Program-made: the position numbers and the translations under genes
Assembly (NCBI GenBank): GCA_001874255.1
Contig: MPDC01000002.1
Coordinates: forward strand, 186,001-250,000
Source of the DNA: Alphaproteobacteria bacterium MedPE-SWcel
Lineage (GTDB): Bacteria > Pseudomonadota > Alphaproteobacteria > Rhodobacterales > Rhodobacteraceae
Length of the DNA: 64,000 nucleotides
Direction of reading: 5' to 3'
Shown: one piece after another, positions 3,554 to 62,353 of the stretch
Layout: every line of letters starts with the position of its first letter
Position numbering within the stretch: the stretch's first letter is position 1
Notes under the pieces: generated by a model
Told to the model about the DNA's origin: nothing
What the model saw: only the letters and a program-made list of their open reading frames with translations
Databases searched by the model: none

Positions 3554-4464
3554 CAGAACGCAAAGGCGCCAAAGCTGTGTGGGTTGCGGTCGATTGGGGA
3601 ACGTCGCATTTGCGCGTGTGGCCAATGGCCTCTGACGATACTCCGTTGTGCCGTATCGACTCTGACATGGGCATGGGGGGGCTCGACCCTTCGGCATATG
3701 AATCGACGCTAACAGCCTTGTTAGAGCCGTATTTTACACCCGGCACGGCGTTGGACGTGATATGCTGCGGCATGGCCGGATCGCGCCAGGGCTGGTCCGA
3801 AGCCCCCTATGCAACTGCGCCCTGTCGGCCGCCCTCTCTTGATCTGGCCACCCGCGTCGAAACCTCTGACGCACGGCTGAACGTCTATATCCTGCCCGGG
3901 GTGAAGCAGCATGATCCTGCGGATGTGATGCGCGGCGAGGAAACTCAGATCGCGGGCGCCCTGGCCGCTGATCCCGGGATGGACGGTGTGATCTGCCTGC
4001 CCGGAACCCATACCAAATGGGTGTCTGTCCACAGCGGAGAGATCACCAGCTTTGCCACCTTTCTGACTGGCGAGTTGTTTCAGTTGATCAGCCAGCAATC
4101 GGTCCTGCGCCACACCCTTGCCTCAGGTGGTTGGGACACATCCGCCTTTGAGGCGGGGTGCCGTGCCGCAATCGAGGCCCCGCAGGCGCTCGCGAATGCG
4201 TTGTTCCGGTTGCGGGCCGAAGCGCTCTTGGCAAATCTCGACCCGGTCGAGGCGCGGTCGCGGGCCTCGGGCTATCTGATCGGGCTGGAGATCGAGGACA
4301 TGCGACCGCGGTGGCAGGGAAAGACCGTTGTCCTCGTGGGCGAGAACGAGATTGCCCAGGCCTATGCCGCTGCGCTGGCAACACAGGGGGCCGAGACTGT
4401 TCTGGCGGATGCAGAAGAGTTCACCTTGGCCGGGCTGCGGTCCGCCCGGGCGCAGATCACATGA
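3550..4464 (+). CDS. dgoK: 2-dehydro-3-deoxygalactonokinase
   Basis: The 304-residue protein is a DgoK-family kinase. It phosphorylates 2-keto-3-deoxygalactonate (KDGal) with ATP to KDPGal, the fourth step of the De Ley-Doudoroff pathway in the cytoplasm. The N-terminal phosphate-binding signature is VAVDWGTSHLRVW, followed by CGMAGSRQGW, LPGTHTKWV and the FLTGELF segment, as usual for DgoK. Its length matches the family. It overlaps the dehydrogenase by 4 bases and is followed after 10 bases by the aldolase that consumes its product. The start of interspersed motif copy A (3716) lies inside it and encodes Leu-Leu-Glu-Pro. Confidence 0.95.
   Translation: MTERKGAKAVWVAVDWGTSHLRVWPMASDDTPLCRIDSDMGMGGLDPSAYESTLTALLEPYFTPGTALDVICCGMAGSRQGWSEAPYATAPCRPPSLDLATRVETSDARLNVYILPGVKQHDPADVMRGEETQIAGALAADPGMDGVICLPGTHTKWVSVHSGEITSFATFLTGELFQLISQQSVLRHTLASGGWDTSAFEAGCRAAIEAPQALANALFRLRAEALLANLDPVEARSRASGYLIGLEIEDMRPRWQGKTVVLVGENEIAQAYAAALATQGAETVLADAEEFTLAGLRSARAQIT
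3716..3735 (+). repeat. Interspersed motif, copy A (in dgoK)
   Basis: CCTTGTTAGAGCCGTATTTT; read as Ala-Leu-Leu-Glu-Pro-Tyr-Phe. A CTAACA at 3709 makes a small inverted repeat with its TGTTAG. Compared with the consensus it differs at three positions. Confidence 0.65.
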
Positions 4465-4474
4465 GGATACGACC

Positions 4475-5080
4475 ATGAGCCGAGAGATTATCGCGATCCT
4501 GCGCGGATTGACCCCTGATGAGGCCGTTCCCATCACCGACGCTCTTCTTGAGGCGGGGATCACGCGGATCGAGGTGCCTCTGAACTCGCCGCAGCCGTTT
4601 GACAGTATAGAAAAGATGGTTCGCCACGCGGGCGACCATGCGGTCATCGGCGCCGGAACCGTTCTGGACCTCGCTTCGGTGCGAAGGCTGCAGAACATAG
4701 GCGCCGGGATGGTGGTCTCGCCGGATTGCAACCCTGATGTGATCTCCGAGACGAAAGCGGCGGGCATGTTGTCCTATCCCGGCGTGTTTTCCGCGACCGA
4801 GGCGTTTGCGGCCCTGCGTGCCGGGGCCGATGGGCTCAAGTTTTTTCCGGCCTTCAAGCTGGGGATTGACGGTTTCACGGCGCTCAGGGCCGTGTTGCCG
4901 CGCTCTGTTGCGACCTATGCCGTTGGTGGCGTCGCGGCCGAGGATTTCGCCGATTGGTTGGCTGCGGGCATCACCGGGTTCGGGATCGGCTCCTCGCTCT
5001 ACAAACCCGGCCAAAGCGCGCAAGAGGTGTCGGCCAGCGCCCTCCGGCATGTTGCGGCCTACGATGCGGTTGTCCAATGA
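4475..5080 (+). CDS. dgoA: 2-dehydro-3-deoxy-6-phosphogalactonate aldolase
   Basis: This 201-residue class I aldolase of the KDPG/KHG family cleaves KDPGal to pyruvate and D-glyceraldehyde 3-phosphate. The start is ATG 4475, giving MSREIIAILRGLTPDEA; an in-frame ATG at 4328 lies inside dgoK and would add non-homologous residues. Motifs are AILRGL near the N-terminus, VIGAGTVLD, and the Schiff-base lysine in GLKFFPAFKLG. The C-terminal GIGSSLYKPG phosphate-binding loop is present. It sits directly behind dgoK and overlaps the lactonase start (ATGA at 5077), so kinase and aldolase are translated together. Confidence 0.95.
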   Translation: MSREIIAILRGLTPDEAVPITDALLEAGITRIEVPLNSPQPFDSIEKMVRHAGDHAVIGAGTVLDLASVRRLQNIGAGMVVSPDCNPDVISETKAAGMLSYPGVFSATEAFAALRAGADGLKFFPAFKLGIDGFTALRAVLPRSVATYAVGGVAAEDFADWLAAGITGFGIGSSLYKPGQSAQEVSASALRHVAAYDAVVQ

Positions 5081-5922
5081 GCACAGAGGTCTACAGTTCC
5101 GTCCCATGCACATTGGGAGAAGGCCCCCTCTGGCACCCGCTGCGGCAGCAATTGTTCTGGTTCGATATACTCGGCAAGAGAATGCTGTCGGTGGACGGTG
5201 GCGAGGACCGTATCTGGCAGTTTGACGAATGTGTCTCGGCCGCTGGGTGGCTGGATCGGGACCGGCTCTTTATGGCCAGCGAAACCGGCCTCTGGACGTT
5301 TGACCTTGGCACCGAAACCCGGACATTGGTCTGCCCTTTGGAGGCCGATAATCCTGTGACGCGATCCAATGACGGGCGGGCCGATCCCTGGGGTGGGTTC
5401 TGGATCGGGACCATGGGGTTTGCGGCCGAACCCGGAGCCGGATCGATCTATCGCTTCTACAAAGGAGAGCTGCGCAGATTGGTGCCGGATGTAACGATCT
5501 CGAACGCGATCTGTTTCCCGGCGGATCGAAGCTGTGCCTATTACACCGACACCGCGATCGGCAAAATCATGTGCCAGCCTCTCGATGCGCGGGATGGCTG
5601 GCCATCGGGCGCAGCAGAAGTGTTCCTGGACCTCAGCGCCGAAGAATTCGGCGCGGACGGTGCCGTTGTCGATTGCGACGGTAACCTCTGGAATGCGCAA
5701 TGGGGGGCTGGACGGGTGGCTTGCTACAGCCCCGAGGGCGCCTTGTTAGAAACTGTTTCTGCGCCCACTCCCCAAACCTCATGCCCGGCCTTTGGCGGGG
5801 AGGACATGGCGACGCTCTTCATCACGACGGCGGCAGAAGGCAGAGAGCCCGGACTTGCCGGACAGACCTTCATGTCGGCTACGGGCGCGACGGGTCAACG
5901 TGAACATCAGGTAGTACTGTGA
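5077..5922 (+). CDS. SMP-30/gluconolactonase family sugar lactonase (probable galactonolactonase)
   Basis: This 281-residue six-bladed beta-propeller lactonase belongs to the SMP-30/regucalcin family. I choose ATG 5077 in the ATGA overlap with dgoA, which gives the family-typical beginning with CTLGEGPLW. Metal ligands are visible: Glu in LGEGPLW, Asn in SNDGRADPWGGFWIGTM and Asp in GADGAVVDCDGNLW. It would open D-galactono-1,4- or 1,5-lactone to D-galactonate, linking the SDR dehydrogenase to the IlvD-like dehydratase. Substrate is inferred from the neighbours; gluconolactone or arabinonolactone cannot be excluded. It contains interspersed motif copy B (5741-5760) near its C-terminus. Confidence 0.9.
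   Translation: MSTEVYSSVPCTLGEGPLWHPLRQQLFWFDILGKRMLSVDGGEDRIWQFDECVSAAGWLDRDRLFMASETGLWTFDLGTETRTLVCPLEADNPVTRSNDGRADPWGGFWIGTMGFAAEPGAGSIYRFYKGELRRLVPDVTISNAICFPADRSCAYYTDTAIGKIMCQPLDARDGWPSGAAEVFLDLSAEEFGADGAVVDCDGNLWNAQWGAGRVACYSPEGALLETVSAPTPQTSCPAFGGEDMATLFITTAAEGREPGLAGQTFMSATGATGQREHQVVL
5741..5760 (+). repeat. Interspersed motif, copy B (in the lactonase gene)
   Basis: CCTTGTTAGAAACTGTTTCT; read as Leu-Leu-Glu-Thr-Val-Ser. Here the right half is a perfect palindrome (5748-5760) and GGGCGC/GCGCCC flank it as inverted repeats (5736-5741, 5761-5766). Confidence 0.72.
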
Positions 5923-5929
5923 GGCCACT

Positions 5930-7837
5930 ATGAAACGCACCCTTGGAACCTGCTACTATCCGGAGCATTGGCCACAAGAGATCTGGGACGAAGATGCCAC
6001 CCGCATGGCGGAGGCAGGGCTGACCTGGGTCCGTATCGGGGAGTTCTCCTGGTCCAAGCTGGAACCCTCGCCGGAAGAGCTGTGTTGGGACTGGCTCGAT
6101 CAGTCGATCGAGAGCCTCGGCTCAAAAGGCTTGAAAGTCGTTCTTGGCACGCCGACGGCAACCCCCCCCCGATGGATGACAGAGCGCCATCCCGACATGT
6201 TTGCCGTGGATGAAAACGGGCATGTCCGGGGCTTTGGCTCACGTCGGCATTATTGCTTCAGTCATCAGGGATATTTCGCCGAAAGCCAGCGCATCACCCG
6301 GTTGATGGCCGAGCGCTACGGCGCAAATCCGCATGTGGCGGCATGGCAGACGGACAATGAATACGGCTGCCACGATACGGTTGTCAGCTATTCTGACGCT
6401 GCGGGGTATGCGTTTCAAACCTGGCTGCAGCAGACCTTTTCCGGCGATATTGAGGCGCTCAACCGTGCCTGGGGCAATGTCTTTTGGTCAATGGAGTACC
6501 GGAGTTTCTCCGAGGTGGGGTTGCCCAATCTCACGGTGACGGAACCCAATCCGGCGCATGTTCTGGCCTTCAAACGCTTCAGCTCTGATCAGGCTGTGGC
6601 CTTCAACCGGGCGCAGGTCGACATCATCAAGGAGTACAGCCAGGCGCCCGTTGCCCATAACTACATGGGACGCGTCACGGATTTCGACCATTTCAAGGTT
6701 GGCTCCGATCTGGAGATTGCAAGTTGGGACAGCTACCCGCTGGGGTTTCTCGAAGACCGCGCGGGCGCGACCGTTGCGGAACAACAGAAGTTCTCGCGGC
6801 AGGGCGACCCTGATTTCCAAGCGCTGCACCATGACCTGTATCGCGCTGTCGGTCGGGGGAGATGGTGGGTGATGGAGCAACAGCCGGGCCCTGTGAACTG
6901 GGCGCCATACAACCCATCGCCGCTGCCGGGCATGGTGCGGTTGTGGACCTGGGAAGCGTTTGCCCATGGCGCGGAGGCTGTGTGTTATTTCCGGTGGCGT
7001 CAGGCGCCCTTTGCGCAGGAGCAATTGCATGCCGGGATGCTGCGCCCCGACAGCCAGGACGCCCCGGCCATCGTCGAGGCGCGTCAGGTTGCGAAGGAGC
7101 TGCAGGAGGCGCAGGATGTTCAGCCCGCCCAGGCTGACGTCGCCATTATGTTTGACTACGACGCGGACTGGGCCTGGTCGACGCAACCCCATGGGGCGGG
7201 GCTCAGCTACTTTGGCTTGATCCTTGACTATTACAAGGCGCTGCGCAGAGCCGGCCTGACCATTGATATCTTGCCACCGGACCGGCGGGACTTTTCCGGA
7301 TACCGCATGGTGCTTGTTCCCGGAATGATGCATGTGCCCGATGATCTGAAAACGGCATTGGCAGATTGCAGCGCCGAGGTTTTGCTCGGGCCACGAACGG
7401 GGGCGCGGGATCAGCATTTCAATATGCCCACGACACCACTTCCGCCTGCGTTTCCGAATTTCGACGTCACCGTGTCGCGGCTTGAGAGCTTCCGGCCCGA
7501 CTTGCCCCGACCCTTGGTTGGTGGCGGAGCGGCAATACGGTATCAGGAAGAGTTGGAAAGCGGTGCCGAAGTTGTCTTGCGATCAGAGGCAGGCGCGAAA
7601 GTCGCCGTTCGCAGCGGTCGGTTGATGTATTGTGGCAGTTGGCTCGATGCTGAGGGTATGGATCGGTTGATTGCGATCGCTGCCGAGGCGGCGGGTCTGG
7701 CGTTGCGTATGCTCCCCGAGGGGGTGCGAACCCGCCGCACCGCGACGGAGGAGTTCTGGTTCAACCACTGCGCCGAGCCCGTCGAAACCGAAGTGGGCCT
7801 GATCCAGGCGGCCGGAGTGGTGCGCAGGCCGATTTGA
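5930..7837 (+). CDS. Beta-galactosidase, GH42 family
   Basis: The 635-residue protein is a glycoside hydrolase family 42 beta-galactosidase. It starts with the family's CYYPEHWPQEIWDEDATRM, and contains the acid/base Glu in WQTDNEYGCH and the nucleophile Glu in VMEQQPGPVNW. The TIM barrel covers roughly residues 1-380, followed by the trimerisation (DJ-1-like) domain with DYDADWAW and RRAGLTIDILP. There is no signal peptide, so cytoplasmic hydrolysis of imported beta-galactosides is likely. It is the last gene of the operon, 7 bases after the lactonase, and its stop faces radC 4 bases away. A run of nine C (6162-6170) lies in the conserved TATPPRWM codons. Confidence 0.95.
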   Translation: MKRTLGTCYYPEHWPQEIWDEDATRMAEAGLTWVRIGEFSWSKLEPSPEELCWDWLDQSIESLGSKGLKVVLGTPTATPPRWMTERHPDMFAVDENGHVRGFGSRRHYCFSHQGYFAESQRITRLMAERYGANPHVAAWQTDNEYGCHDTVVSYSDAAGYAFQTWLQQTFSGDIEALNRAWGNVFWSMEYRSFSEVGLPNLTVTEPNPAHVLAFKRFSSDQAVAFNRAQVDIIKEYSQAPVAHNYMGRVTDFDHFKVGSDLEIASWDSYPLGFLEDRAGATVAEQQKFSRQGDPDFQALHHDLYRAVGRGRWWVMEQQPGPVNWAPYNPSPLPGMVRLWTWEAFAHGAEAVCYFRWRQAPFAQEQLHAGMLRPDSQDAPAIVEARQVAKELQEAQDVQPAQADVAIMFDYDADWAWSTQPHGAGLSYFGLILDYYKALRRAGLTIDILPPDRRDFSGYRMVLVPGMMHVPDDLKTALADCSAEVLLGPRTGARDQHFNMPTTPLPPAFPNFDVTVSRLESFRPDLPRPLVGGGAAIRYQEELESGAEVVLRSEAGAKVAVRSGRLMYCGSWLDAEGMDRLIAIAAEAAGLALRMLPEGVRTRRTATEEFWFNHCAEPVETEVGLIQAAGVVRRPI

Positions 7838-7841
7838 AGTG

Positions 7842-8624
7842 TCAAAGCAGCCCCTCGCTGCGAAAAGACAATTCGTCGGACGCTCCGATGATGAGATGAT
7901 CGTGCAGTTCAATTCCGAGGGCGTCCAATGCGGACTCGACCTTGCGGGTCATGCTGATGTCAGATTGGGACGGGGTCGGGTCGCCGGACGGGTGATTGTG
8001 GACGAGAATGAGGGCACTGGCGTTGAGCTCCAGTGCCCGTTTGGCGACCTCACGTGGGTAGACGGGCACGTGATCCACTGTGCCGCGGGCCTGTTCTTCG
8101 TCCGCTATGAGGACGTTCTTGCGGTCAAGGAAGAGGACGCGGAACTGTTCGGTGTCCCGATGCGCCATGGCGGTGTGACAATAATCCAGGAGCACATCCC
8201 AGCTGCCAATGACCTGTCGTTGCATCACACGGGAGCGCGCCATGCGCTGGGCCGCGGCCTCAAAGATCTTCAGATCGCAGATCACCGCCTGACCGACGCC
8301 GGAGATACGCGCCAACCGTTCCGGGGGGGCCGAAATCACGCGGTTCAGATCCCCGAATTGCGCCAGCAGGCTGTGGGCGAGAGGTTTGACATCTTTGCGG
8401 GGAATGCTCCGAAACAGGATCAATTCCAGCAATTCATATTCGGGAAGAGCCGTTGCGCCACCCGTCATGAACCGTTCGCGGAGGCGGGCGCGGTGATCGG
8501 AAATGTAGGAGGGTACGCGACCTCGCGGTAGTGGGACGGCAGCGGCCTCATCGCTGTCGCCAAACAGCGGCATCATCGCTTCTTCGAACTGACCGGATTT
8601 TCCCATGTGATCATGGTGATGCAA
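7842..8624 (-). CDS. radC: RadC family protein (JAB/MPN-domain)
   Basis: This 260-residue RadC homologue has the helix-hairpin-helix-like N-terminal part (RLRERFMTGGATALPEYELLELILF, RISGVGQA) and the C-terminal JAMM metalloprotease-like motif with HNHPSGDPTPSQSD. RadC proteins were once linked to DNA repair, but their biochemical role is unsettled. The annotated ATG at 8624 gives MHHHDHMGK; the internal ATG seven codons later is an equally good start. It is transcribed towards the GH42 gene, with only 4 bases between the two stops. A strong terminator at 8681-8705 separates it from dnaJ, so it should have its own promoter in 8625-8680. Confidence 0.92.
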   Translation of the reverse strand: MHHHDHMGKSGQFEEAMMPLFGDSDEAAAVPLPRGRVPSYISDHRARLRERFMTGGATALPEYELLELILFRSIPRKDVKPLAHSLLAQFGDLNRVISAPPERLARISGVGQAVICDLKIFEAAAQRMARSRVMQRQVIGSWDVLLDYCHTAMAHRDTEQFRVLFLDRKNVLIADEEQARGTVDHVPVYPREVAKRALELNASALILVHNHPSGDPTPSQSDISMTRKVESALDALGIELHDHLIIGASDELSFRSEGLL

Positions 8625-9955: not shown

Positions 9956-9976
9956 ACCTTTGGCCAAGGTGCACCC

Positions 9977-12043: not shown

Positions 12044-12109
12044 CGCACGATTGCCCTGTTACAGGCAAATATGAGCGCTTTTGCGACAAACAGAGTTAAG
12101 ATTAGGCTA

Positions 12110-39184: not shown

Positions 39185-39293
39185 GTGGAAGATCCCTGAA
39201 GTGAAGTCAGGGCCACTCTAGCAGGGCCATTCTCGCGAGAGATACAGCAATGTGTCGGGGCGGTGTGATGGGGCGGTGTGATGTCGGGAAATT

Positions 39294-39379
39294 TGGTGCC
39301 CAGAAGAGGACTCGAACCTCCACGTCCTTGCGGACACTAGCACCTGAAGCTAGCGCGTCTACCATTCCGCCATCTGGGC
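39294..39379 (-). tRNA. tRNA-Leu (anticodon CAG), copy 1
   Basis: The minus strand folds as a class II (long variable arm) tRNA: acceptor GCCCAGA with TCTGGGC, anticodon stem CTAGC/GCTAG around loop TTCAGGT, variable arm GTCCGCAAGGAC, T arm with GGTTCGAGTCC, and an encoded CCA. It reads CUG codons. The sequence is identical to copy 2, 303 bases downstream in coordinates. Confidence 0.97.
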
Positions 39380-39596
39380 ACAGATGAGGTGTGAGGCGTT
39401 CTAAGCAGGATTGGGCGAGGCTGCAAGCGGAAAAACCGCCGATCCTGGAAAGCTGCGGCGGAAAATCCAACGACATCGAACAGGATTATCCGGCTGCTTC
39501 GCCTCAGTCGGCGTTGCGTGGCCATGTTGGTGGCCATGTTGACTGAGTATCAACGGATCATGAGGGGGCGGATGATGGGAAACATCATGGGGAATA

Positions 39597-39682
39597 TGGT
39601 GCCCAGAAGAGGACTCGAACCTCCACGTCCTTGCGGACACTAGCACCTGAAGCTAGCGCGTCTACCATTCCGCCATCTGGGC
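39597..39682 (-). tRNA. tRNA-Leu (anticodon CAG), copy 2
   Basis: This is an exact duplicate of copy 1, including the encoded CCA and a few flanking bases (GGTGCCC on one side, CACAGATG on the other). On the minus strand it is the upstream copy, so both may be cut from one transcript. The 214 bases between the copies contain no gene that I can recognise. Confidence 0.97.
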
Positions 39683-39875
39683 ACAGATGTCGTGTTGGCG
39701 GCGTATAAGCGGAGTCGCGCAGAGCGTCAAACAGATAATTCAGATTCTTCACAGAATCCTGTGGCGCGGCGGCCCGTCCTGCGGCCCGGTGGCCGTCCAG
39801 CGGCGTTTTGCGCCTTGTTTGACAGGGCTTGGGGCGGTAGATCGAATGAAGAGCTAGCGCGAGAGGAGCCAAGTC

Positions 39876-50153: not shown

Positions 50154-51203
50154 ATGCCCAAGGTAGAGCAGGAAGAACTGAAAAAGCGCCTGGTTGCGCA
50201 GGCCCTGAAAGAGGGCTTTGTTGCCGCGCGTATTTGCCGCCCCTGGGACGTGCCGGAGGTGCCTGCCCGATTGCGGGCCTTTCTGGATGCGGGCTATCAC
50301 GGACAGATGTCCTGGATGGAGGAGCGCACCAACTGGCGCGCCGACCCTGCGGCACTTTGGCCGGAGGCCCGGTCGGTGATCATGCTGGCCGAAAGCTACA
50401 CGCCCGACGAAAACCCGATGGACGTTGTGGGGCTGCCGGATCGGGCCGCGATCTCTGTCTATGCGCGCGGCAAGGACTATCATGATCTCGTCAAGAAACG
50501 CCTGAAGCGGCTGGCCCGCTGGTTGATTGCAGAGGCCGGTGGCGCGCCCGAGGTCAAGGTCTTCGTGGATACGGCACCGGTGCCCGAAAAGGCGCTCGGG
50601 CAGGCGGCTGGTCTCGGGTGGCAGGGTAAACACACCAATCTTGTGAGCCGTGATTGGGGTAATTGGGCCTTTTTAGGGTCTATTTTTACCACGCTCGACC
50701 TCCCGGAGGATCGGGCGGAGCCGGACCGCTGCGGCTCCTGCCGGGCCTGTCTGACGGCCTGCCCGACCGAGGCGTTTCCCGCCCCCTACCAGCTCGACGG
50801 TCGCCGCTGCATCTCCTATCTCACGATCGAGCACAAAGGCCCTATCCCGCTGGAGCTGCGCAGCAAGCTGGGAAACCGCATCTACGGCTGCGACGATTGT
50901 CTGGCAGCCTGCCCCTGGAACAAGTTTGCGGTGGAGGCCTCTGATCTGCGATATGCCGCCCGCGCTGGTACGGTGGCGCCCCCGCTCGCGGAACTGGCGC
51001 GCCTGGACGATGCGACATTTCGAGAAACCTACTCCGGTTCCCCGATCAAACGCATTGGCCGGGACCGGTTTGTGCGCAACGTCCTCTATGCCATCGGCAA
51101 TTCCCAAACCCCCGCCCTCAGGCCGGTGGCGCAGTCCCTGTGTTCTGATCCAGATCCGGCGGTCGCCGATGCTGCCCGCTGGGCCGTTCAGAGGCTGACA
51201 TGA
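50154..51203 (+). CDS. queG: Epoxyqueuosine reductase
   Basis: The 349-residue cobalamin- and iron-sulfur-dependent enzyme performs the last step of queuosine synthesis in tRNA. The two [4Fe-4S] motifs are [16 protein letters not shown] and [13 protein letters not shown], preceded by the cobalamin-domain [17 protein letters not shown] region. The C-terminal HEAT-like helices are present. It starts 28 bases after the fzlA-like gene. A stretch with unusually AT-rich codons (50668-50687) looks like a diverged copy of the interspersed motif, although the encoded residues are conserved in the family. Confidence 0.96.
50668..50687 (+). repeat. Possible diverged interspersed motif, copy G (in queG)
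   Basis: CCTTTTTAGGGTCTATTTTT; 16 of 20 bases match the consensus and the following ACC is shared with copy C. It includes a TTA codon but encodes conserved QueG residues (Phe-Leu-Gly-Ser-Ile-Phe), so chance is a real alternative. Confidence 0.4.
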
Positions 51204-51274: not shown

Positions 51275-53281
51275 ATGGCGCTGTTGCTTGGGGTCGATAC
51301 GGGTGGCACCTATACCGATGCCGTTCTCATCCGGGACGAGACCGAGGTCGTGGCCACGGCCAAATCCCTCACCACCAGACAGGATCTGGCCATCGGCATC
51401 GGCGGCGCTGTCCGGGCGGTGTTGGACCAATCCGGCGTGGCGCCGTCCGAAGTGTCCCTGGCGGCTCTGTCGACCACCCTTGCCACCAATGCGCTTGTGG
51501 AAGGTCAGGGCGGGCGTGTGGCGCTGATCTATATCGGATTTGCCGCTACCGATCTGGAGCGGCACGGCCTGCGCGAGGCGCTGAAGGGGGATCCGGCGTT
51601 GATCCTGAGCGGCGGACATACGCATGACGGGAGCGAGGCCACCCCCCTCGATACAGAGGCGCTGCTGTCGTTTCTGGACACCGAGGCCGCCGGTGTGAGC
51701 GGTTTTGCCGTTGCAGGCCTGTTTGCGACGCGCAACCCCGCCCATGAAATCGAAGTCGCCCGGATCATCCAGGCGCGCACGGGGGTGCCGGTCACCAGCT
51801 CGCATCAGCTGAGCGCAAAGCTCAATGGCCCCAAGCGGGCGCTGACAGCCGTGTTGAACGCGCGTCTGGTCGGCATGATCGATGGTTTGATTGGCCGCGC
51901 CGCCGAGACCCTTGATGCGATCGGGGTCCGGGCGCCGATGATGGTTGTGCGGGGCGACGGCGCCCTGATGTCGGCCGAGCAGGCGCGTGTCCGGCCCATC
52001 GAGACGATCCTGAGTGGTCCGGCGGCCTCGATCGTTGGCGCGCGTTGGATGACCGGTGCGGAAAACGCGATTGTCAGTGATATTGGCGGCACCACGACCG
52101 ATGTTGCCCTGATTGAACGGGGCCTTCCCAAGATCGACCCGGCCGGAGCGGAGGTCGGCGGGTTCCGCACCATGGTCGAGGCGGTGGCCATGCGCACGAC
52201 CGGCCTTGGCGGCGATAGCCAGGTTCATCTGAAGACGGAGGGGCTCGGTGGCGGGGTGACGCTGGGGCCGCGCCGGGTTCTGCCGGTGTCCTTGATTGCC
52301 ACCGAAGCGCCACAGCTGGTGCATGCAGCCCTCGATGCGCAGCTGCGGGCCACGGTGGTGGGGGAATATGATGGACGGTTCGTGCGCGCCGTCCTCGGCC
52401 AGTCGACCGTCGGCTTGACCGAACGTGAGGCCGCCGTCCTGGCGCGCATCGGTACCGAGGTTCACCCGCTGGGAGATGTCCTGCGGAGCCGGATGGAGCA
52501 GGGGGCGCTGAGCCGGTTGATCGATCGTGGACTGGTCCAAACGGCCGGACTCACGCCATCCGATGCCAGTCATGTTCTGAACACGGCGTCGGCCTGGGAC
52601 ACGGATGCGGCGCAAAAAGCACTGGCCCTTTTTGCGCGGCGTCGCACCGGCAGCGGGGATGCGGTCGCAAAGGATGCCGAAACACTGGCGCGGATGATCG
52701 TGGACCAATTGACGGATCAGACCGTTTTGACCTTGTTAGAGACTGTTTTTACCGAGGAGCAGGCGCAATTTCCCGGCGATCCCCATGTGCTGGCGCGGCA
52801 TGTCCTGCTGCAGCGGGGGCTCGCGGGCCACAAGGGGCTGCTTGCGATGGAGGCCCGTGTGAATGTCGAGGTGATCGGATTGGGGGCCTCGGCATCGACC
52901 TATTACCCGGCCGTCGGAGCGCGGTTGCGGTGCAAGATGATCCTGCCCGAGTACGCAGGTGTAGCCAATGCCATTGGCGCGGTCGTGGGGCGGATAACGC
53001 AGCGATGCGCGGGGACGGTGACCTCCCCGTCCGAGGGGCGATACAGGGTGCATTTTGACAGCGGGCCGAAGGATTTCAACGACAGTTCGGATGCGATGGT
53101 CGCATTGGAGCAGGACCTCCGGCAGCTTGCCGTCGCAGAGGCCAAGGCCGCAGGTGCGGGGGGCATACACGTCCATGTCGACCGGGATGTAAAAACCGCA
53201 GAGGTCGAAGCCCGTGCCGTCTTTGTCGAAGCAACGATCACCGTCGAAGCCAGCGGCCGACCGCGGGTGGCGCGCGGATGA
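51275..53281 (+). CDS. Hydantoinase/oxoprolinase family protein (HyuA-like)
   Basis: The 668-residue protein corresponds to the A subunit of ATP-dependent hydantoinases, 5-oxoprolinases and acetone carboxylases. The N-terminal LLGVDTGGTYTDAVLI, TTLATNALVEG and the central IVSDIGGTTTDVALI phosphate motifs are clear. Most relatives are encoded next to a B subunit (HyuB), which is absent: queG lies upstream and msrA is convergent downstream. It may be a stand-alone amidohydrolase, or its partner is elsewhere. Motif copy C (52731-52750) encodes Leu-Leu-Glu-Thr-Val-Phe in it. Confidence 0.88.
   Translation: MALLLGVDTGGTYTDAVLIRDETEVVATAKSLTTRQDLAIGIGGAVRAVLDQSGVAPSEVSLAALSTTLATNALVEGQGGRVALIYIGFAATDLERHGLREALKGDPALILSGGHTHDGSEATPLDTEALLSFLDTEAAGVSGFAVAGLFATRNPAHEIEVARIIQARTGVPVTSSHQLSAKLNGPKRALTAVLNARLVGMIDGLIGRAAETLDAIGVRAPMMVVRGDGALMSAEQARVRPIETILSGPAASIVGARWMTGAENAIVSDIGGTTTDVALIERGLPKIDPAGAEVGGFRTMVEAVAMRTTGLGGDSQVHLKTEGLGGGVTLGPRRVLPVSLIATEAPQLVHAALDAQLRATVVGEYDGRFVRAVLGQSTVGLTEREAAVLARIGTEVHPLGDVLRSRMEQGALSRLIDRGLVQTAGLTPSDASHVLNTASAWDTDAAQKALALFARRRTGSGDAVAKDAETLARMIVDQLTDQTVLTLLETVFTEEQAQFPGDPHVLARHVLLQRGLAGHKGLLAMEARVNVEVIGLGASASTYYPAVGARLRCKMILPEYAGVANAIGAVVGRITQRCAGTVTSPSEGRYRVHFDSGPKDFNDSSDAMVALEQDLRQLAVAEAKAAGAGGIHVHVDRDVKTAEVEARAVFVEATITVEASGRPRVARG
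52731..52750 (+). repeat. Interspersed motif, copy C (in the hyuA-like gene)
   Basis: CCTTGTTAGAGACTGTTTTT, identical to the consensus; read as Leu-Leu-Glu-Thr-Val-Phe. Confidence 0.75.
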
Positions 53282-53379
53282 CAGGACAGGCCGAACAAAT
53301 GGCAAAAGCCCCCTCCGGCAGGATGTCCAAACCGGAAGGGGTCGTTCACAGCTGCGCGTATATCAGGCTCTGATCAGGG

Positions 53380-53895
53380 TTATTCGGCAGCTTCGGACCG
53401 CTTGGGCAGCACCCAGTCCGGCCGGGCGAAATGGCAGGTATAGCCATTCGGGAGCCGCTGCAAATAGTCCTGATGCTCTGGTTCGGCTTCCCAGAATTCG
53501 CTTGCGGGCGCCAGTTCGGTGACCACTTTCCCGGGCCACAGACCCGAGGCATTGACGTCGGCAATCGTGTCTTCGGCAACATGCTTCTGATGATCGTCGA
53601 CATAGTAAATCGCCGAGCGGTAGCTCATTCCCAGGTCGTTCCCCTGCCGGTTTTCCGTGGTCGGATCATGGATCTGAAAAAAGAACTCCAGCATGTCCCG
53701 ATAGGAGGTCTGCGCCGGATCGTAGATGATCTCGATCGCTTCTGCATGGGTTCCGTGATCGCGGTAGGTCGCATTGGCGACATCGCCGCCAGTATAGCCG
53801 ACACGGGTGGCGAGCACACCTTTGCGATTGCGGATCAGCTCCTGCATGCCCCAGAAACACCCCCCCGCGAGAACGGCACGTTCAGGTTTGCTCAT
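53380..53895 (-). CDS. msrA: Peptide-methionine (S)-S-oxide reductase
   Basis: The 171-residue MsrA repairs the S epimer of oxidised methionine. The catalytic cysteine is in [11 protein letters not shown], with [13 protein letters not shown] and [14 protein letters not shown] (written here in parts) downstream. ATG 53895 has GGAGGATC in front and overlaps the msrB stop by 4 bases; an upstream frame to 53988 lies inside msrB. Partner enzyme msrB precedes it, so both epimers are handled. Confidence 0.96.
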
Positions 53896-55974: not shown

Positions 55975-57441
55975 TTATAGGAAGGCCGTTTCGTCAAAAG
56001 AGCGCAGTTTGCGGCTGTGCAGGCGCTCCAACGGCATCGTTCGCAACTGCTCCATTGCCTTTATTCCGATCAAAAGATGGCGTGAAACCTGCGTCCGGTA
56101 GAAGTCCGATGCCATCCCCGGCAGCTTCAGTTCGCCGTGCAGGGGTTTGTCGGAAATGCACAGAAGCGTGCCATAGGGCACCCGGAACCGATAGCCATTG
56201 GCGGCGATCGTGGCGCTTTCCATGTCCAATGCGATGGCGCGGGATTGGCTCAGATGCTGGACCGGACCGGACTGATCGCGCAGTTCCCAATTCCGGTTGT
56301 CGTGGCTGGCCACAGTGCCGGTGCGCATGATCCGCTTGAGGTCATAGCCCTCGAGGCCGGTTTGCTGTTCCACGGCTTCTTCCAACGCGACCTGTATTTC
56401 CGCCAGCGCCGGGATCGGCACCCAGACCGGCAGGTCATCGTCCAGCACATGATCCTCGCGCAGATAGGCGTGGGCGAGGACAAAATCGCCAAGCGCCTGA
56501 CTGTTGCGCAGGCCGGCGCAATGGCCGACCATGATCCAGGCATGCGGACGCAGGACCGCGATGTGGTCGGTCGCGGTTTTAGCGTTCGAGGGGCCGACGC
56601 CGATATTGACCAGGGTGATGCCGCTGCCGTCGGCCCGTTTCAGATGATAGGTCGGCATCTGCGGCATCTTTGGGGTTGGCGGCAGCTCGGCGGTTGCATC
56701 CGTGATTTCGGCATTTCCGGTCGACACAAAGCTGGTATAGCCGCTGTTCGGGTCGGCCAGCTGTTCCCGGGCATAGGCCTCGAATTCGGTGACATAGAAC
56801 TGGTAGTTGGTGAACAGAACATGGTTCTGGAAATGGTCCGGGTCGGTGGCCGTGTAATGCGCCAGCCGCGCCAGCGAATAGTCGACCCGCTGGGCGGTGA
56901 ACAACGACAGCGGACCAACACCATTCTCGGGGACATAGGTTCCGTTGACGATGTCGTCATTGGTCGTGGCCAGATCCGGCACGTCAAACACGTCACGCAG
57001 GGGGAACCGGGCCGCGCCCTCCTGGGGAACGGTCAGCCCCGGGCGCGAGGCAACGGCGAAATGAACCGGCATCGGTGTCTTTGACACGCCGACCACCACC
57101 GGCTGATCATGGTTCTTGATCAACAAACCGATCTGTTGCTCCAGATAGTGCTGAAAGAGCTTTGGCCGGGTCACCGTCGTGGTGTAGGTGCCCGGATCCG
57201 CCACATGGCCAAAGCTCAACCGGCTGTCCACCTTTGCGTAGGTCGTGGTCGTGAACCGGACTTCGGGATAGAAGGCACGCATGCGACCACCGGGCGCGGC
57301 GCCTGCGCTCATCGCGGCCATAAACCCATCACAGAGGAAATTGGTTGCCGCGTCATAAAGCTCGATCAACCGGGCCACGGCGGCTTTGGGATCGGTGAAG
57401 GTCTCATCTCCGGGCAGGAGGGGGGTCTTGATGTCACTCAT
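55975..57441 (-). CDS. amn: AMP nucleosidase
   Basis: The 488-residue enzyme splits AMP into adenine and ribose-5-phosphate. It has the Amn-specific N-terminal domain (about 1-180) and a C-terminal nucleoside-phosphorylase-like domain with GVGPSNAKTATDHIAVLRPH, MVGHCAGLRNSQ and LDMESATIAANGYRFRVPYG. The start overlaps the end of adenine deaminase by 8 bases, so adenine made by Amn can pass directly to Ade. Confidence 0.97.
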   Translation of the reverse strand: MSDIKTPLLPGDETFTDPKAAVARLIELYDAATNFLCDGFMAAMSAGAAPGGRMRAFYPEVRFTTTTYAKVDSRLSFGHVADPGTYTTTVTRPKLFQHYLEQQIGLLIKNHDQPVVVGVSKTPMPVHFAVASRPGLTVPQEGAARFPLRDVFDVPDLATTNDDIVNGTYVPENGVGPLSLFTAQRVDYSLARLAHYTATDPDHFQNHVLFTNYQFYVTEFEAYAREQLADPNSGYTSFVSTGNAEITDATAELPPTPKMPQMPTYHLKRADGSGITLVNIGVGPSNAKTATDHIAVLRPHAWIMVGHCAGLRNSQALGDFVLAHAYLREDHVLDDDLPVWVPIPALAEIQVALEEAVEQQTGLEGYDLKRIMRTGTVASHDNRNWELRDQSGPVQHLSQSRAIALDMESATIAANGYRFRVPYGTLLCISDKPLHGELKLPGMASDFYRTQVSRHLLIGIKAMEQLRTMPLERLHSRKLRSFDETAFL

Positions 57442-59239
57442 TGAACGGCTCGATTACTGGAATTTTCTTGAATGTGCGGACGTCGACTAGGCCAAGATCG
57501 CTGATCCGGAGTTCCGGGATCACCACCAGGGCCAGCAGTGAATGTTGCATATAGGCGTTGTTCAGCCGGCATCCACAGTCCTGCATGGCCTCGACCAGCT
57601 TTTGCGCCTTGGCGGCGACTTCGGCGGCAGGCCGGTCGGACATCAGCCCGGCAATGGGCAATTCCACCAGAGCCATTTCCACTCCATCGCGGAACAGGGT
57701 GATGCCGCCGCCGACCTCTGCCAGACGATTGGCCGCCAACGCCATCTGCGTCCGGTCGGTGCCCACGACGATCATGTGGTGACTGTCGTGCGCCACGGTC
57801 GAGGCCATCGCCATCTCGCCCTGATAGCCAAAGCCCGAGACAAAGGCATTGGTGACGCCGCCCGTGGCCCGATGCCGTTCCACAAGGGCAATCTGGCAGA
57901 CCTGATCGTCGCCCTCGACCAACCCGTCGCGGACCGGCAGCTCGGCCTTCAGCGCTTTGGTCGGGGCCTGGTTTTCCACAACGCCAATCACATTGGCGGT
58001 AACCGAGTTCGCGCCTTGGGGCGCGGCCAGTTCAAAGTCCTTGCCCGTCAGCTCATGGCCCAGATGAACAGTGCCGCGCGCGCTTTGGGGCCAGTCCAGA
58101 TGCGGGCATTCGACCTTGATAGAGCCTGATTCCGCGACGATCTGTCCGCGGGCAACCACCAGTTCAATGGGCAGCGACCGCAGGTCCGAGGTCAGGATGA
58201 CATCCGCCCGGCGCCCCGGGGTGATTGATCCGATCTCACGCTCCAGCCCGAAATGCGTGGCGGTGTTGATCGTCGCCATCTGGATGGCCACGACCGGGTC
58301 GCAACCGCAGTCAATTGCATGGCGCACCACCCGGTTCATATGGCCGTCATTGACCAATGTGCCGGAATGGCAGTCGTCCGTGCACAGGATGAAGTTCCGC
58401 GGATCGAGCCCCTTTTCGGTGATCGCCGTGATCTGCGCCTCCACGTCGTACCAGGCAGAGCCGAGACGGACCATCGCACGCATCCCCTGACGCATCCGCG
58501 CGATGGCATCGGCTTCGCAGGTGCCTTCGTGATCGTCCGCAGGGCCCCCGGCGACATAGGCTGCGAAATTGGCTCCGAGGTCGGGCGAGGCATAATGCCC
58601 GCCAACGGTCTTGCCCGCCCGCTGGGTGGCGGCGATCTCGGCCAGCATTTTCGGGTCGGCATTCGACACCCCGGGGAAATTCATCATCTCGCCCAGACCG
58701 ATGATGCCGGGCCAGGTCATCGCCTCGGCCACATCCTCGGCGGAAATTTCGTATCCGGTGGTTTCCAGTCCCGGCGCAGACGGCGCGCAGGACGGCATCT
58801 GGGTGTAGATGTTCACCGGCTGCAACAGCGCCTCGTCATGCATCAGCCGGACGCCCTCAAGGCCAAGCACATTGGCGATTTCATGCGGGTCGGTGAACAT
58901 GGAGGTGGTGCCATGCGGGATCACGGCACGGGCGAATTCCGCCGGAGTCAGCATGCCGCTCTCGATATGCATATGCGCGTCGCACAGCCCCGGCACCATA
59001 AAGCGCCCCTCGGCCTCGATCACTTGCGTCTCGGGGCCCGTGCAGTAGGAGGCATCGGGTCCCACATAGGCCACCCGGCCCGCCTTGATCGCAATGTCAT
59101 GACCGTCCAGCACCTCGCGGGTGTGAACGTTCACCCATTTGCCGTTGCGGATTACCATGTCGGCAGGGGCACGGCCCGCGGCCGTTTCTACCAAAAGAGT
59201 GGCGACGTCGGGCCAGCTTGGAAAAGTCGTATGTGTCAT
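57434..59239 (-). CDS. ade: Adenine deaminase
   Basis: The 601-residue amidohydrolase converts adenine to hypoxanthine. Metal ligands are in PGLCDAHMHIESGMLTP, and CTDDCHSGTLVNDGHMNRVVRHAI (parts) contains the catalytic Asp region; the C-terminal VAHDSHHMIVVGTDRTQM domain is specific to Ade. It is upstream of, and overlaps, amn. A purine salvage pair, AMP to adenine to hypoxanthine, is thus encoded together. Confidence 0.97.
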   Translation of the reverse strand: MTHTTFPSWPDVATLLVETAAGRAPADMVIRNGKWVNVHTREVLDGHDIAIKAGRVAYVGPDASYCTGPETQVIEAEGRFMVPGLCDAHMHIESGMLTPAEFARAVIPHGTTSMFTDPHEIANVLGLEGVRLMHDEALLQPVNIYTQMPSCAPSAPGLETTGYEISAEDVAEAMTWPGIIGLGEMMNFPGVSNADPKMLAEIAATQRAGKTVGGHYASPDLGANFAAYVAGGPADDHEGTCEADAIARMRQGMRAMVRLGSAWYDVEAQITAITEKGLDPRNFILCTDDCHSGTLVNDGHMNRVVRHAIDCGCDPVVAIQMATINTATHFGLEREIGSITPGRRADVILTSDLRSLPIELVVARGQIVAESGSIKVECPHLDWPQSARGTVHLGHELTGKDFELAAPQGANSVTANVIGVVENQAPTKALKAELPVRDGLVEGDDQVCQIALVERHRATGGVTNAFVSGFGYQGEMAMASTVAHDSHHMIVVGTDRTQMALAANRLAEVGGGITLFRDGVEMALVELPIAGLMSDRPAAEVAAKAQKLVEAMQDCGCRLNNAYMQHSLLALVVIPELRISDLGLVDVRTFKKIPVIEPFNE

Positions 59240-59327
59240 GGCCTACTGTTCATGATTGCGATCTGGGGTGCAAGACCCCTATTGCGGGATCATAACAGCG
59301 TCATGAACCCCGGGTAGAGCATCAGTT

Positions 59328-59753
59328 ATGAACATCGTCATTCATCACAATCCGCGTTGCGGCACCTCTCGCAATGTTTTGCAGCTGGTGCGCGATGCGG
59401 GCTATGATCCGGTCGTCGTGGACTATCTTGAGACCGGCTGGACCCGCCCGCAGTTGCTGGCGCTCTTTGCTGCGGCAGGCCTGACGCCACGAATGGCGCT
59501 TCGGACCACGAAATCTCCGGCGGCCGAGCTGGGATTGCTGGAGGAATCCGTCAGCGACAGCGATATTCTCGACCAGATGGTGCTGCATTCCATCCTCGTG
59601 AACCGGCCGATTGTCGCCTGCCCGCGTGGCGTGAAATTGTGCCGCCCTTCGGGGCGCGTTCTGGACCTGCTCGACACCTGGCCTGCAGGACCTTGGGCCA
59701 AGGAAGACGGTACCCTGATCCTTGATGCCGACGGGAGCCGGGTGGGCGAATAG
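59328..59753 (+). CDS. arsC: ArsC-family arsenate reductase-like protein
   Basis: The 141-residue glutaredoxin-dependent ArsC-type protein has the catalytic cysteine in HNPRCGTSRNVL, followed by YLETGWTR, RTTKSP and RPIVACPRG. Its relatives include arsenate reductases and Spx/YffB proteins of other functions. No arsenic efflux or ArsR gene is nearby, so an arsenic role is not certain. Its stop is directly followed by interspersed motif copy D. Confidence 0.88.
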   Translation: MNIVIHHNPRCGTSRNVLQLVRDAGYDPVVVDYLETGWTRPQLLALFAAAGLTPRMALRTTKSPAAELGLLEESVSDSDILDQMVLHSILVNRPIVACPRGVKLCRPSGRVLDLLDTWPAGPWAKEDGTLILDADGSRVGE

Positions 59754-59754
59754 C

Positions 59755-59774
59755 CCTTGTTAGAGCCTGTTTTT
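59755..59774 (+). repeat. Interspersed motif, copy D (after arsC)
   Basis: CCTTGTTAGAGCCTGTTTTT, one difference from the consensus. This copy is intergenic, starting one base after the arsC stop. Confidence 0.75.
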
Positions 59775-59810
59775 CGGGACGCGTGTTGCAGGCCGCTGAC
59801 AGGCGGCGCT

Positions 59811-60764
59811 TCAGATCCGCATCTGTTGACGGCGCAGGCTGCGGGGGGTGGTGTTGAACTCGCCACGAAACGCACGGGTCAGGGCGCTCGGATCCTCATA
59901 GCCGGTGCGAAACGCCACCTCGGACACGCTGATATCAGTCTCTAACAAGAGCTTTCGGGCCAAAATCAGCCTGAACCTGCGGTAGACGGTGGCGGGCGTT
60001 GCGCCAAGCTCTGCCTTCATGCGGGCCTCCAGATCCTTGCGGGGGCGTCCGATGCGGCGGGCGATCTCGGGGATTGGCAATGGCGCTTCCAGATTCGCCT
60101 GCATCAGATCCACCGCCCGGGCAATGCTGCGGGTGCGGGCGAGGGCGGTCTCGGTGCCGGATCCGCGGCTGTCCGCGCTCATGAACAGGGCCGCCACCTC
60201 AAGGCGCAGCGCTTGCCCGTGGGCGCTGCCGATCCGCTCCAGCATCAGGTCAAACGCCGCCAATGCGCCGGTGCAGGTCGTGCGATCGCCGTCCTGAACA
60301 TAGCGCGCCCGGACCGTATGAACCTCGGGAAAGGCCTCGGCCATCCGGTCGAATTCGTCCCAATGGATCGTGGCTTGCCGCCCGTCCAGCAAACCCGCAG
60401 CGGCCAAAAGCCAGGGCCCGGTGTCAAATCCGGCGATGTCGCCATAGCGCGTTGCCGCCGCCCGCAGGGACCGGCGTGTCTGTGCGTGATCGTGGCGCAG
60501 GAAATGATAACTCGGCATCACCACCAGCATGTCCCCGCGACACTCTCCCAGACGGGCGTGGGCGGTGACCTCCATCCCGGAGGAGGACACCGCCGTGCCC
60601 CCGTCAAGAGACAGAAACCGCCAGCGATAGATCTCTCTGCGTGCCAGGGTGTTTGCGGCCCGCAAAGGCTCCACAGTATTGGCGAGACAATGGGCAGAGA
60701 AATCGTCAAACAGCAAAACATCCACCTGCTGCGCCGACCCAAGATCATTTGTCCATTTCTGCAT
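59811..60764 (-). CDS. GlxA-type AraC-family regulator with DJ-1/PfpI domain
   Basis: The 317-residue regulator has an N-terminal DJ-1/PfpI (GATase1-like) sensor domain (about 10-175: VDVLLFDDFSAHCLANTVEPLRAAN in pieces, GDIAGFDTGPWLLAAAGLL) and a C-terminal AraC-type double helix-turn-helix (about 215-317: PLPIPEIARRIGRPRKDLEARM, VSEVAFRTGYEDPSALTRAFR). Similar regulators control carnitine and betaine breakdown in Pseudomonas (CdhR, GbdR). It is divergent from the acyl-CoA dehydrogenase operon, so it probably regulates it. It contains motif copy E (59931-59950). Confidence 0.9.
   Translation of the reverse strand: MQKWTNDLGSAQQVDVLLFDDFSAHCLANTVEPLRAANTLARREIYRWRFLSLDGGTAVSSSGMEVTAHARLGECRGDMLVVMPSYHFLRHDHAQTRRSLRAAATRYGDIAGFDTGPWLLAAAGLLDGRQATIHWDEFDRMAEAFPEVHTVRARYVQDGDRTTCTGALAAFDLMLERIGSAHGQALRLEVAALFMSADSRGSGTETALARTRSIARAVDLMQANLEAPLPIPEIARRIGRPRKDLEARMKAELGATPATVYRRFRLILARKLLLETDISVSEVAFRTGYEDPSALTRAFRGEFNTTPRSLRRQQMRI
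59931..59950 (-). repeat. Interspersed motif, copy E (in the GlxA-type regulator)
   Basis: Minus strand TCTTGTTAGAGACTGATATC; the left 15 bases match the consensus except the first. Read as Leu-Leu-Leu-Glu-Thr in the AraC domain, 156 bases from copy D and in opposite orientation. Confidence 0.7.
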
Positions 60765-60848
60765 GGTTTTCGCCTTTTCTGCATGAAGTGAACCCTAGGC
60801 CAGCGATAGCCTCTTCGGCAAGCGAGCAGACCAGCAAGGAGACGCACC

Positions 60849-62012
60849 GTGCATTTTGGCATGACAGAAGAACAGTCAATGATCGTCGACACTACCCGCG
60901 CCTTTGTCGAGAAAGAGATCTATCCCCACGAGCTGGAGATCGAGCGCAGCGGCCATCTCGACATGGATCTGGTCAAGGACATCCAGACCAAGGCGATCGC
61001 GGCGGGCCTTTATGCGGCCAACATGCCGGAAGAGGTCGGCGGTGCGGGTTTGGATACCCTGTCCTGGCTACTGTATGAAAAGGAACTGGGCCGCGCCAAT
61101 TATGCGCTGCATTGGACCGGCGTCGCCCGCCCTTCGAACATCTTGCTCGCCGGGACCGACGCGCAGAAGGAGAAATACCTCTACCCCTGCATCCGAGGCG
61201 AGAAATGGGATTGCCTGGCGATGACCGAACCGGGCGCCGGGTCGGATCTGCGCGGCATGACGGCTTCGGCCCGCAAGGACGGGAGCGATTGGATTCTGAA
61301 CGGGACCAAACATTTCATCTCGCATGCGGATATCGCGGATTTTGCCATCGTCTTCATGGCAACAGGCGAAGAGGACACGCCGCGCGGCAAGAAGAAAAAG
61401 ATCACCGCCTTCTTTGTCGACAAGGGCACGCCCGGCTTTTCGGTGCGGGAGGGATACCGGAACGTGTCGCACCGTGGCTACAGCAATGCGGTTCTGGAAT
61501 TTGACGACTGCCGCCTGCCAGCATCGGCGGTCCTCGGTGAGGTCGACAAGGGGTTCGAGGTGGCAAACACCTGGCTCGGGGCCACGCGACTACAGGTGGC
61601 GGCGACCTGTCTCGGTCGGGCGGACCGGGCCCTGGCCCATGCCGTCGACTACGCCGCCGAACGCAAGCAGTTCGGGCAGCAGATCGGCAAGTTCCAGGGT
61701 GTCTCGTTCAAGCTGGCCGATATGGCGACCGAACTGAAGGCCGCCAATCTGCTCACCTGGGAGGCCGGATGGAAGTTTGATCAGGGCTCCGTCACCGAAA
61801 GCGATATGTCCATGGCAAAGCTCAAGGCGACCGAAATGCTCGCCATGGTTGCGGATGAGGCGATCCAGATTCACGGCGGCATGGGATTGATGGACGAACT
61901 GCCGCTCGAACGCATCTGGCGCGACGCGCGCGTGGAGCGTATCTGGGAGGGCACCAGTGAAATCCAGCGGCACATCATCAGCCGCGAGATGCTGCGACCT
62001 CTTGGAGGCTGA
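60849..62012 (+). CDS. Acyl-CoA dehydrogenase
   Basis: The 387-residue FAD enzyme oxidises an acyl-CoA to the 2-enoyl-CoA. It has MTEPGAGSDLRGM (FAD), NGTKHFISHADIADF, an R-KQFGQQIGKFQGVSFKLADM helix and the C-terminal QIHGGMGLMDELPLERIWRDAR. The last segment resembles the crotonobetainyl-CoA reductase/CaiA and short-chain branches. GTG 60849 has AAGGAG 7 bases upstream; ATG 60861 is the alternative. With the SelT/W/H-like gene and the ADP-forming-type CoA ligase downstream it forms a probable acid-activation and oxidation operon. Confidence 0.93.
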   Translation: MHFGMTEEQSMIVDTTRAFVEKEIYPHELEIERSGHLDMDLVKDIQTKAIAAGLYAANMPEEVGGAGLDTLSWLLYEKELGRANYALHWTGVARPSNILLAGTDAQKEKYLYPCIRGEKWDCLAMTEPGAGSDLRGMTASARKDGSDWILNGTKHFISHADIADFAIVFMATGEEDTPRGKKKKITAFFVDKGTPGFSVREGYRNVSHRGYSNAVLEFDDCRLPASAVLGEVDKGFEVANTWLGATRLQVAATCLGRADRALAHAVDYAAERKQFGQQIGKFQGVSFKLADMATELKAANLLTWEAGWKFDQGSVTESDMSMAKLKATEMLAMVADEAIQIHGGMGLMDELPLERIWRDARVERIWEGTSEIQRHIISREMLRPLGG

Positions 62013-62014
62013 CC

Positions 62015-62335
62015 ATGTCCGACACCCCTGACCCGACCCACAAACCCAATGTGACCATTACCTATTGCATCGGCTGCAACTGGCTGTTGCGGGCCGCCTG
62101 GATGGGGCAGGAGCTGCTGTCGACATTTCAGGAACAGCTCGGGGGCGTGACCCTGGTGCCGGGCGAGGTGGGCGGCACGTTCGAGATCACCGTCGACGAC
62201 GCGCTGATCTGGGAGCGCAAGCGGGATGGCGGCTTTCCGGACGTGAAAGAGCTGAAGACCCGCGTGCGGGATCGTATCAATCCGGACCAGAGCCTCGGGC
62301 ATCTGGATCGCGAAAATTCGGGTGAACAAAGCTAA
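62015..62335 (+). CDS. SelT/SelW/SelH (Rdx) family protein with CxxC
   Basis: The 106-residue protein has the thioredoxin-like Rdx fold. The redox motif is YCIGCNW, with cysteine in both positions and no selenocysteine. The C-terminal EVGGTFEITVDDALIWERK and GFPDVKELKTRVRD segments match bacterial SelW homologues. It starts 2 bases after the acyl-CoA dehydrogenase stop, and its TAA is followed immediately by the ATG of the CoA ligase. A redox or structural role in the operon is unknown. Its end overlaps motif copy F. Confidence 0.92.
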   Translation: MSDTPDPTHKPNVTITYCIGCNWLLRAAWMGQELLSTFQEQLGGVTLVPGEVGGTFEITVDDALIWERKRDGGFPDVKELKTRVRDRINPDQSLGHLDRENSGEQS

Positions 62336-62353
62336 ATGCAGTCTCTAAACAGG
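62334..62353 (-). repeat. Interspersed motif, copy F (over the CoA ligase start)
   Basis: Minus strand CCTGTTTAGAGACTGCATTT, four differences from the consensus. It spans the selW-like stop and the ATG at 62336, so its opposite strand encodes the first codons of the ligase. Confidence 0.6.

Follow-up and report, generated by a model that had tools for sequence, protein, structure and literature searches.

In a 64,000-nucleotide stretch of the draft genome of Alphaproteobacteria bacterium MedPE-SWcel (the window; contig MPDC01000002.1, positions 186,001 to 250,000), a 20-bp sequence, CCTTGTTAGAGACTGTTTTT, recurs on both strands and in unrelated genes. The question that this locus raises is what keeps such a sequence in these places. 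The copies are regarded here, with good but not high confidence, as an array of asymmetric sites of about 25 bp that would mark the origin domain (approximately 0.25-0.5 Mb around parS) for a sequence-specific DNA-binding protein.

Clustering of the motif in the window

All seven copies listed in the original prediction were located in the window, with zero to four mismatches to the 20-mer (Table 1). The motif that they share was found to be longer and more degenerate than first described: it spans about 25 bp, is asymmetric and reads about TTTnnGCCGnGTTAGAG[A/C]CTGWTTY. The list itself was correct as far as it went, with two further copies missed (58119 on the plus strand and 53373 on the minus strand) and the copy at 50668 now assigned to queG.

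At three mismatches or fewer, CCTTGTTAGAGACTGTTTTT is present three times in the window and in none of 100 dinucleotide shuffles, while at four or fewer there are seven sites in the window against one in 986 kb of control sequence (16 stretches of the same genome). A 19-mer core allowing up to three mismatches was identified five times in the whole 4.08-Mb draft genome, four of these inside the window. When all 20-mers of the window were compared, the motif family had the most neighbours at both ≤2 and ≤3 mismatches. Raw counts become ordinary for GC-rich 20-mers once four or five mismatches are allowed, other window centres reaching six at ≤4, and similar or higher composition-adjusted scores occur in several control windows, some of them by way of tandem repeats; the high-mismatch raw counts alone are unconvincing, because GC-rich words and control windows score comparably. 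The features that are unusual are the AT-rich sequence, the top counts at ≤2 and ≤3 mismatches and the local clustering.

Shorter and looser descriptions of the motif were also tried. The word TTAGAGACTG occurs five times on both strands of the 1.05 Mb sampled (expected, 0.32), and it was rejected as a genome-wide word from that count. A degenerate 17-mer at two mismatches was matched about as often as its reversed control in most genomes and was dropped.

Concentration around parS and restriction to the family

Exact parS sites (TGTTTCACGTGAAACA) were identified in 15 of 16 genomes, with two to three copies in each. In the genome of the window (G000) they lie at positions 136848 and 138762 of the window's own contig (C12, where the window is C12:186001-250000). 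The two flank an ORF, which we take to be gidA, and lie about 1.9 kb apart, a distance seen again in the other genomes that have exact sites. In the stretches of G032 and C12 that were analysed, parS falls at a local minimum of GC skew, a measure of these stretches and not of whole-genome skew.

Distances from parS were determined for matches to a sequence-only model (R1), built from 40 sites of G032 and four of the genome of the window; its E-values derive from an abbreviated calibration, and scoring was limited to the 150 best candidates of each genome (the best 54 in the 143-genome sample described below). Five genomes that contributed no sites to the model gave 53 matches at E ≤ 1, of which 49 are no more than 300 kb from parS (G038, 23/23; G084, 11/11; G170, 6/6; G009, 7/9; G104, 2/4), as are 62 of 68 at E ≤ 5. 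A similar picture was obtained with the 13-mer TTAGAGACTGTTT at up to one mismatch: 43 of 47 matches in six few-contig genomes are within 300 kb of parS, a count that omits four genomes that are drafts or have no exact parS (G163, 3/3; G102, 3/8; G067, 4/8; G166, 0/6 placeable). The reversed 13-mer gave 4 of 32 in the same six genomes.

The single-contig genome G032 (3.56 Mb) allows a direct comparison of regions. Counts of the word GTTAGAGAC are 18 in the 399 kb around the origin and one in 400 kb elsewhere; those of TAGAGACTG and GTTAGAGCC are 14:0 and 13:0, the two regions being equal in GC content (57.0 and 57.3%). An iterated matrix, with its cut-off just above the best score found in the 400 kb elsewhere, identified 47 sites in 259 kb. 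Applied to G038 at >17 bits, the G032 matrix located 32 sites in 500 kb around parS, against a mean of 0.42 and a maximum of three for 60 column-permuted matrices, and one in 160 kb elsewhere; GTTAGAGAC and GTTAGAGCC occur 13:0 and 10:0 times in these 500 and 160 kb. In the genome of the window, model R1 at E ≤ 5 yielded ten matches: seven on the parS contig (five of them in the window), one on C34 and two on C10, contigs that in this draft genome are not placeable relative to the origin. Counts of the motif exceed those of shuffled, same-genome and permuted-matrix controls alike, so that the count no higher than random, named in the original prediction as refuting it, was not observed against these controls. 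The origin domain is where most of the sites gather.

This concentration bears on several roles put forward in the original prediction. It lends support to a putative chromosome-organising site, or a site for a nucleoid protein, and is at odds with a genome-wide uptake or packaging signal. DNA uptake sequences are present in high copy number genome-wide, and an identity with them was rejected from the five 19-mer matches in 4.08 Mb, four of which are inside the window.

Several observations weigh against an origin-domain array. The result for G104 is weak, with only two of its four matches at E ≤ 1 near parS. Over all ten genomes scanned with the 13-mer, 53 of 72 matches could be placed within 300 kb of parS; unplaceable matches on other contigs make up most of the remainder (G102, five; G067, four; G166, six). 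G166 has no exact parS, so that its motif matches have no position relative to it; this genome possibly represents a lineage of the family in which the system was lost or altered. Clusters or matches were already visible in most of the complete genomes when they were selected (G009 was taken because it has few contigs), and the positions were known before the 300-kb radius was fixed. In G032 the motif words rank among the top 8- and 9-mers, yet unrelated words come first, and in the k-mer comparison of G038 they fall outside the eight top words. Besides seven sites on 310 kb of C12, the G032 matrix finds three in 740 kb of other contigs of the same genome. The number of sites per genome varies widely, from 7 to 47, and some copies are on plasmids. 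A strict 14-mer core was unmatched in 76 of 149 genomes, a figure that applies to the strict match and leaves room for the motif in these genomes. Finally, a cognate protein was not found: a synteny look at origin-proximal genes gave no candidate among 24 ORFs on the contig that carries parS, which were assessed by eye for resemblance to familiar protein families.

The same 14-mer, at up to one mismatch, was matched in the other 73 of the 149 genomes, each of which represents a different genus of the family, with tight clusters in several. At closer range, the 19-mer at ≤3 mismatches gave 64 matches in 17 genomes of the same genus, against nine for the backwards sequence. The nearest named records to the window's hydantoinase are from Phaeobacter, Tritonibacter, Epibacterium and Leisingera-type bacteria. 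Further afield, 143 alphaproteobacterial genomes were drawn evenly (completeness ≥95%, stricter filters) and searched at E ≤ 1, which corresponds to about one chance match per genome. Three Rhodobacteraceae genomes had 7, 13 and 11 matches and all others at most three; the 13 matches of G184, the one of these three that was new to the analysis, are on two contigs, and the position of parS was not located in it. In the sample tested, the motif is confined to the family of the window (Rhodobacteraceae; Roseobacteraceae in NCBI's present naming).

Two resemblances to other classes of site were rejected. The genus consensus can be read as a direct repeat or a response-regulator site (TGTT-N6-TGTT), but this pattern fails in the G032 matrix. 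LexA-type sites have the form GTTC-N7-GTTC, and by eye the spacing in the motif is off by one base.

Selection on the DNA and turnover of the sites

Conservation of the encoded protein and conservation of the DNA can be told apart by codon usage in orthologues, which was examined in rows for copies C, D, G and F (copies A and B being outside this set). Among 24 near hydantoinase orthologues, TTA accounts for 45 of 1730 leucine codons but is used at copy C in 16 of the 24 rows, and at a second motif site, 354 residues upstream of copy C, in 12 of them. Eight of 11 distant hydantoinase orthologues retain Leu-Leu-Glu, and none has TTA at the core leucine codon. The AraC-type gene has TTA at 18 of 511 leucine codons, yet 14 of 15 rows carry it at copy D, with protein identities reaching as low as 60%. 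The corresponding figures for queG are 26 of 719 overall and 17 of 23 rows at copy G, which overturned an explanation of copy G as mere QueG protein conservation. For copy F, read on the other strand, the codon CTA was found in all seven rows shown (window included), while CTA makes up 35 of 1730 leucine codons in hydantoinase.

The motif is maintained by selection on the DNA itself, as had been predicted: TTA and CTA are retained at the copies, and distant orthologues keep most of the residues without these bases, so that residue conservation is insufficient. The codon rows compared are ungapped at the sites whether the motif is present or absent, and its presence or absence therefore arises by substitution rather than insertion.

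Within the origin domain, no preference of the sites for gaps between genes was observed. Large stop-to-stop ORFs, a crude measure, contain 44 of 47 sites in G032 and all 32 in G038, about as expected from their coverage (0.93 and 0.92). When parS is taken as the origin, 28 of 47 sites in G032 (p 0.24) and 9 of 32 in G038 point away from it; the trends are opposite, and the strand bias relative to the origin that was to be mapped proved inconsistent between the two genomes. A KOPS or Ter-type polar signal is unlikely for this reason. Conservation of sites in place between genera is limited. Of the 47 G032 sites, 17 are alignable in G038 and 14 in G000, with four and one, respectively, conserved in place (displaced controls, 0/102 and 0/84), while the array remains in the domain. 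Turnover and ORF placement fit selection for sites within a region, not for fixed positions, and promoters or polar signals fit poorly.

The copies of the window are listed in Table 1. Copy C, the best of them, is also the top match of model R1 in this genome. A copy at a place roughly matching that of 53360..53384 (locus about 12048-12067) was identified in six relatives (L107, L108, L110, L118, L121 and L128). The second hydantoinase motif site (FLET region) was seen in relatives L106-L109, L112 and L128 at locus about 10396 and was not found in the window's gene.

Table 1. Copies of the motif in the window. Positions in the fourth column are those of the 20-mer or, for the two additional copies, of the core; "model site" marks copies among the 44 sites used to build model R1. 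The genus matrix was trained partly on orthologous copies, is biased toward CCTTG and served for site placement, not statistics.
Copy	Position	Strand	20-mer or core	Location	Pfam	Mismatches to 20-mer	Model R1 E-value	Genus matrix
A	3710..3734	+	3716	in 2-keto-3-deoxy-galactonokinase gene 3550-4464	PF05035	4	0.77 (C12:189714)	26.4
B	5735..5759	+	5741	in SMP-30/gluconolactonase ORF 4954-5922	PF08450	2	no match at E ≤ 5	22.3
G	50662..50686	+	50668	degenerate variant in queG 50154-51203	PF08331	4	no match at E ≤ 5	
C	52725..52749	+	52731	in hydantoinase A 51275-53281	PF01968	0	0.015 (model site)	
Additional, degenerate	53360..53384	-	53373	about 80 nt downstream of hydantoinase A			no match at E ≤ 5	22.8
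Additional	58108..58132	+	58119	in adenine-deaminase-like gene 57434-59239 (minus strand)	PF13382, PF01979		0.18 (model site)	31.9
E	59749..59773	+	59755	between arsC-like gene (end 59753, stop overlapped) and AraC-type regulator	PF03960	1	0.15 (model site)	
D	59932..59956	-	59931	in AraC-type regulator 59811-60764 (minus strand)	PF12833	4	1.22	
F	62335..62359	-	62334	spans start codon of succinyl-CoA-ligase-like gene (62336 onward)	PF13607	4	no match at E ≤ 5	29.2

Candidate function, known systems and alternative explanations

The motif probably marks the origin region for a putative protein. We infer this binding protein and its role from sequence: a sequence-specific DNA-binding protein would occupy the sites, its binding to many scattered sites would set the origin region apart as a nucleoid domain that is condensed or anchored, and it may help to position or segregate this region beside ParABS. 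A more specific form of this proposal is put forward tentatively, as a possibility that falls short of the likely: the Rhodobacteraceae would have an origin-macrodomain system that has so far gone undescribed, in which a dedicated protein is served by 7-47 asymmetric sites on each chromosome and which some rhamnose-operon plasmids, perhaps co-positioned with the origin, have also acquired. No published description of the motif was found among the open-access PubMed Central papers listed by sequence-string and topic searches, of which the string search is not decisive.

The parS site of ParABS is a 16-bp palindrome; the motif differs from it in sequence, and parS is present separately. No match to PF04219, which we take to be the MaoP family, was found in G000, while E. 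coli was recovered among 14 control genomes. The MaoP/maoS system of Escherichia coli is likewise a DNA-site-based organisation of the Ori macrodomain, with a single 17-bp site (PMC5023128, in excerpt), as against 7-47 sites of by-eye unrelated sequence here; the number of sites and the missing PF04219 match exclude an identity of the two. The closest analogues, RacA/ram and MatP/matS, are named as parallels and not as an assignment of the array to either. In Bacillus subtilis, ram sites serve chromosome condensation and polar tethering (excerpt of PMC6593407) and, like the arrays described here, have a high density near the origin. According to the same excerpt they are also found over the rest of the chromosome, unlike the present sites, and belong to a sporulation system of another phylum. 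The matS motif of E. coli is likewise short and repeated tens of times in one domain (23 copies in 800 kb; 13-bp target), according to the part of PMC3330122 consulted, which places it in the terminus domain, whereas the sites here are asymmetric, of about 25 bp and in the origin domain. Over-representation in one domain and rarity elsewhere, common to matS, ram and the RefZ-binding motifs (RBM), were also found here, in genomes that were not blindly chosen.

A bound protein might instead couple the position of the origin to cell division or to the control of replication, in the manner of proteins of nucleoid occlusion or of septum placement such as SlmA, Noc and RefZ, and not fold or anchor the region. 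The distribution of sites would fit this equally well. SlmA and Noc sites are palindromic, which counts against it. In Bacillus, RefZ-binding motifs likewise lie around oriC, are conserved across a genus and act through FtsZ, but they are five near-palindromic sites at conserved relative positions (as far as described in the excerpt of PMC6657595), whereas those examined here are asymmetric, number 7-47 and turn over. Coupling to division or replication is considered unlikely, although it is the alternative that retains most weight.

The sites could also be operators of an ordinary transcription factor whose targets are near the origin by chance, as three of the nine window copies (E, F and 53373) fall between genes or on the start of one. 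This is improbable given the ORF placement in proportion to coverage in G032 and G038 (on the crude stop-to-stop measure), the occurrence on both strands and in unrelated genes, and the origin-near position in several genera. Spread of a small mobile element or repeat, whether intact or as a remaining footprint, had also been proposed in the original prediction and would account for near-identical interspersed copies, some of them on plasmids; it is very improbable, since the flanks have no similarity by eye, the codon rows compared are ungapped, rare synonymous codons are retained, positions turn over within the domain, and none of the loci compared showed the motif inserted, with target duplication, in one of two close strains. 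That a repeat-seeking reader picked up chance similarity or the conservation of protein residues is scarcely credible: four copies do read Leu-Leu-Glu or Leu-Glu and other GC-rich 20-mers equal the counts at ≤4-5 mismatches, but it is contradicted by local and cross-genome enrichment over controls, by distant orthologues that retain most residues and not the bases, by codon retention and by matches in genomes not used for the model.

Polar hubs are among the explanations of origin placement in Alphaproteobacteria. For Caulobacter, it has been explained by ParB-parS and SMC (PMC7858052, in excerpt). If an origin-domain array is indeed what the copies represent, a dedicated multi-site array would add a further layer of origin placement in an abundant marine family; the definition of the origin domain would become directly testable in tractable strains, with the 25-mer as bait for the cognate protein, and the array may tie certain plasmids to the position of the chromosome.

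Copies on plasmids were identified in several replicons. The copy on C34 of the genome of the window is in rfbD of a rhamnose operon, and a relative of this operon is on a 130,973-bp plasmid of Ruegeria sp. TM1040. Another copy is in glf on a 70,805-bp plasmid of Phaeobacter porticola, which is identical to contig C5 of G104 over the 4 kb compared. Plasmid pPGA1_65 of P. inhibens DSM 17395 (65 kb), which carries rfbABCD, has three sites by both matrices, at 7399, 31617 and 54360, and three further weaker sites, each by one matrix. In the first 50 kb of pPGA1_262 no site was found, and the first 50 kb of pPGA1_78 contain one (18.5, G032 matrix only). Among the loci compared, copies on rhamnose-operon plasmids were noted in L321/L322 (pPGA1_65, the three sites named above), L004 (about 1505), L078 and L315 (1987).

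The window also contains a 107-nt direct repeat, 96% identical, at 39286-39392 and 39589-39695, the two units being 303 nt apart.

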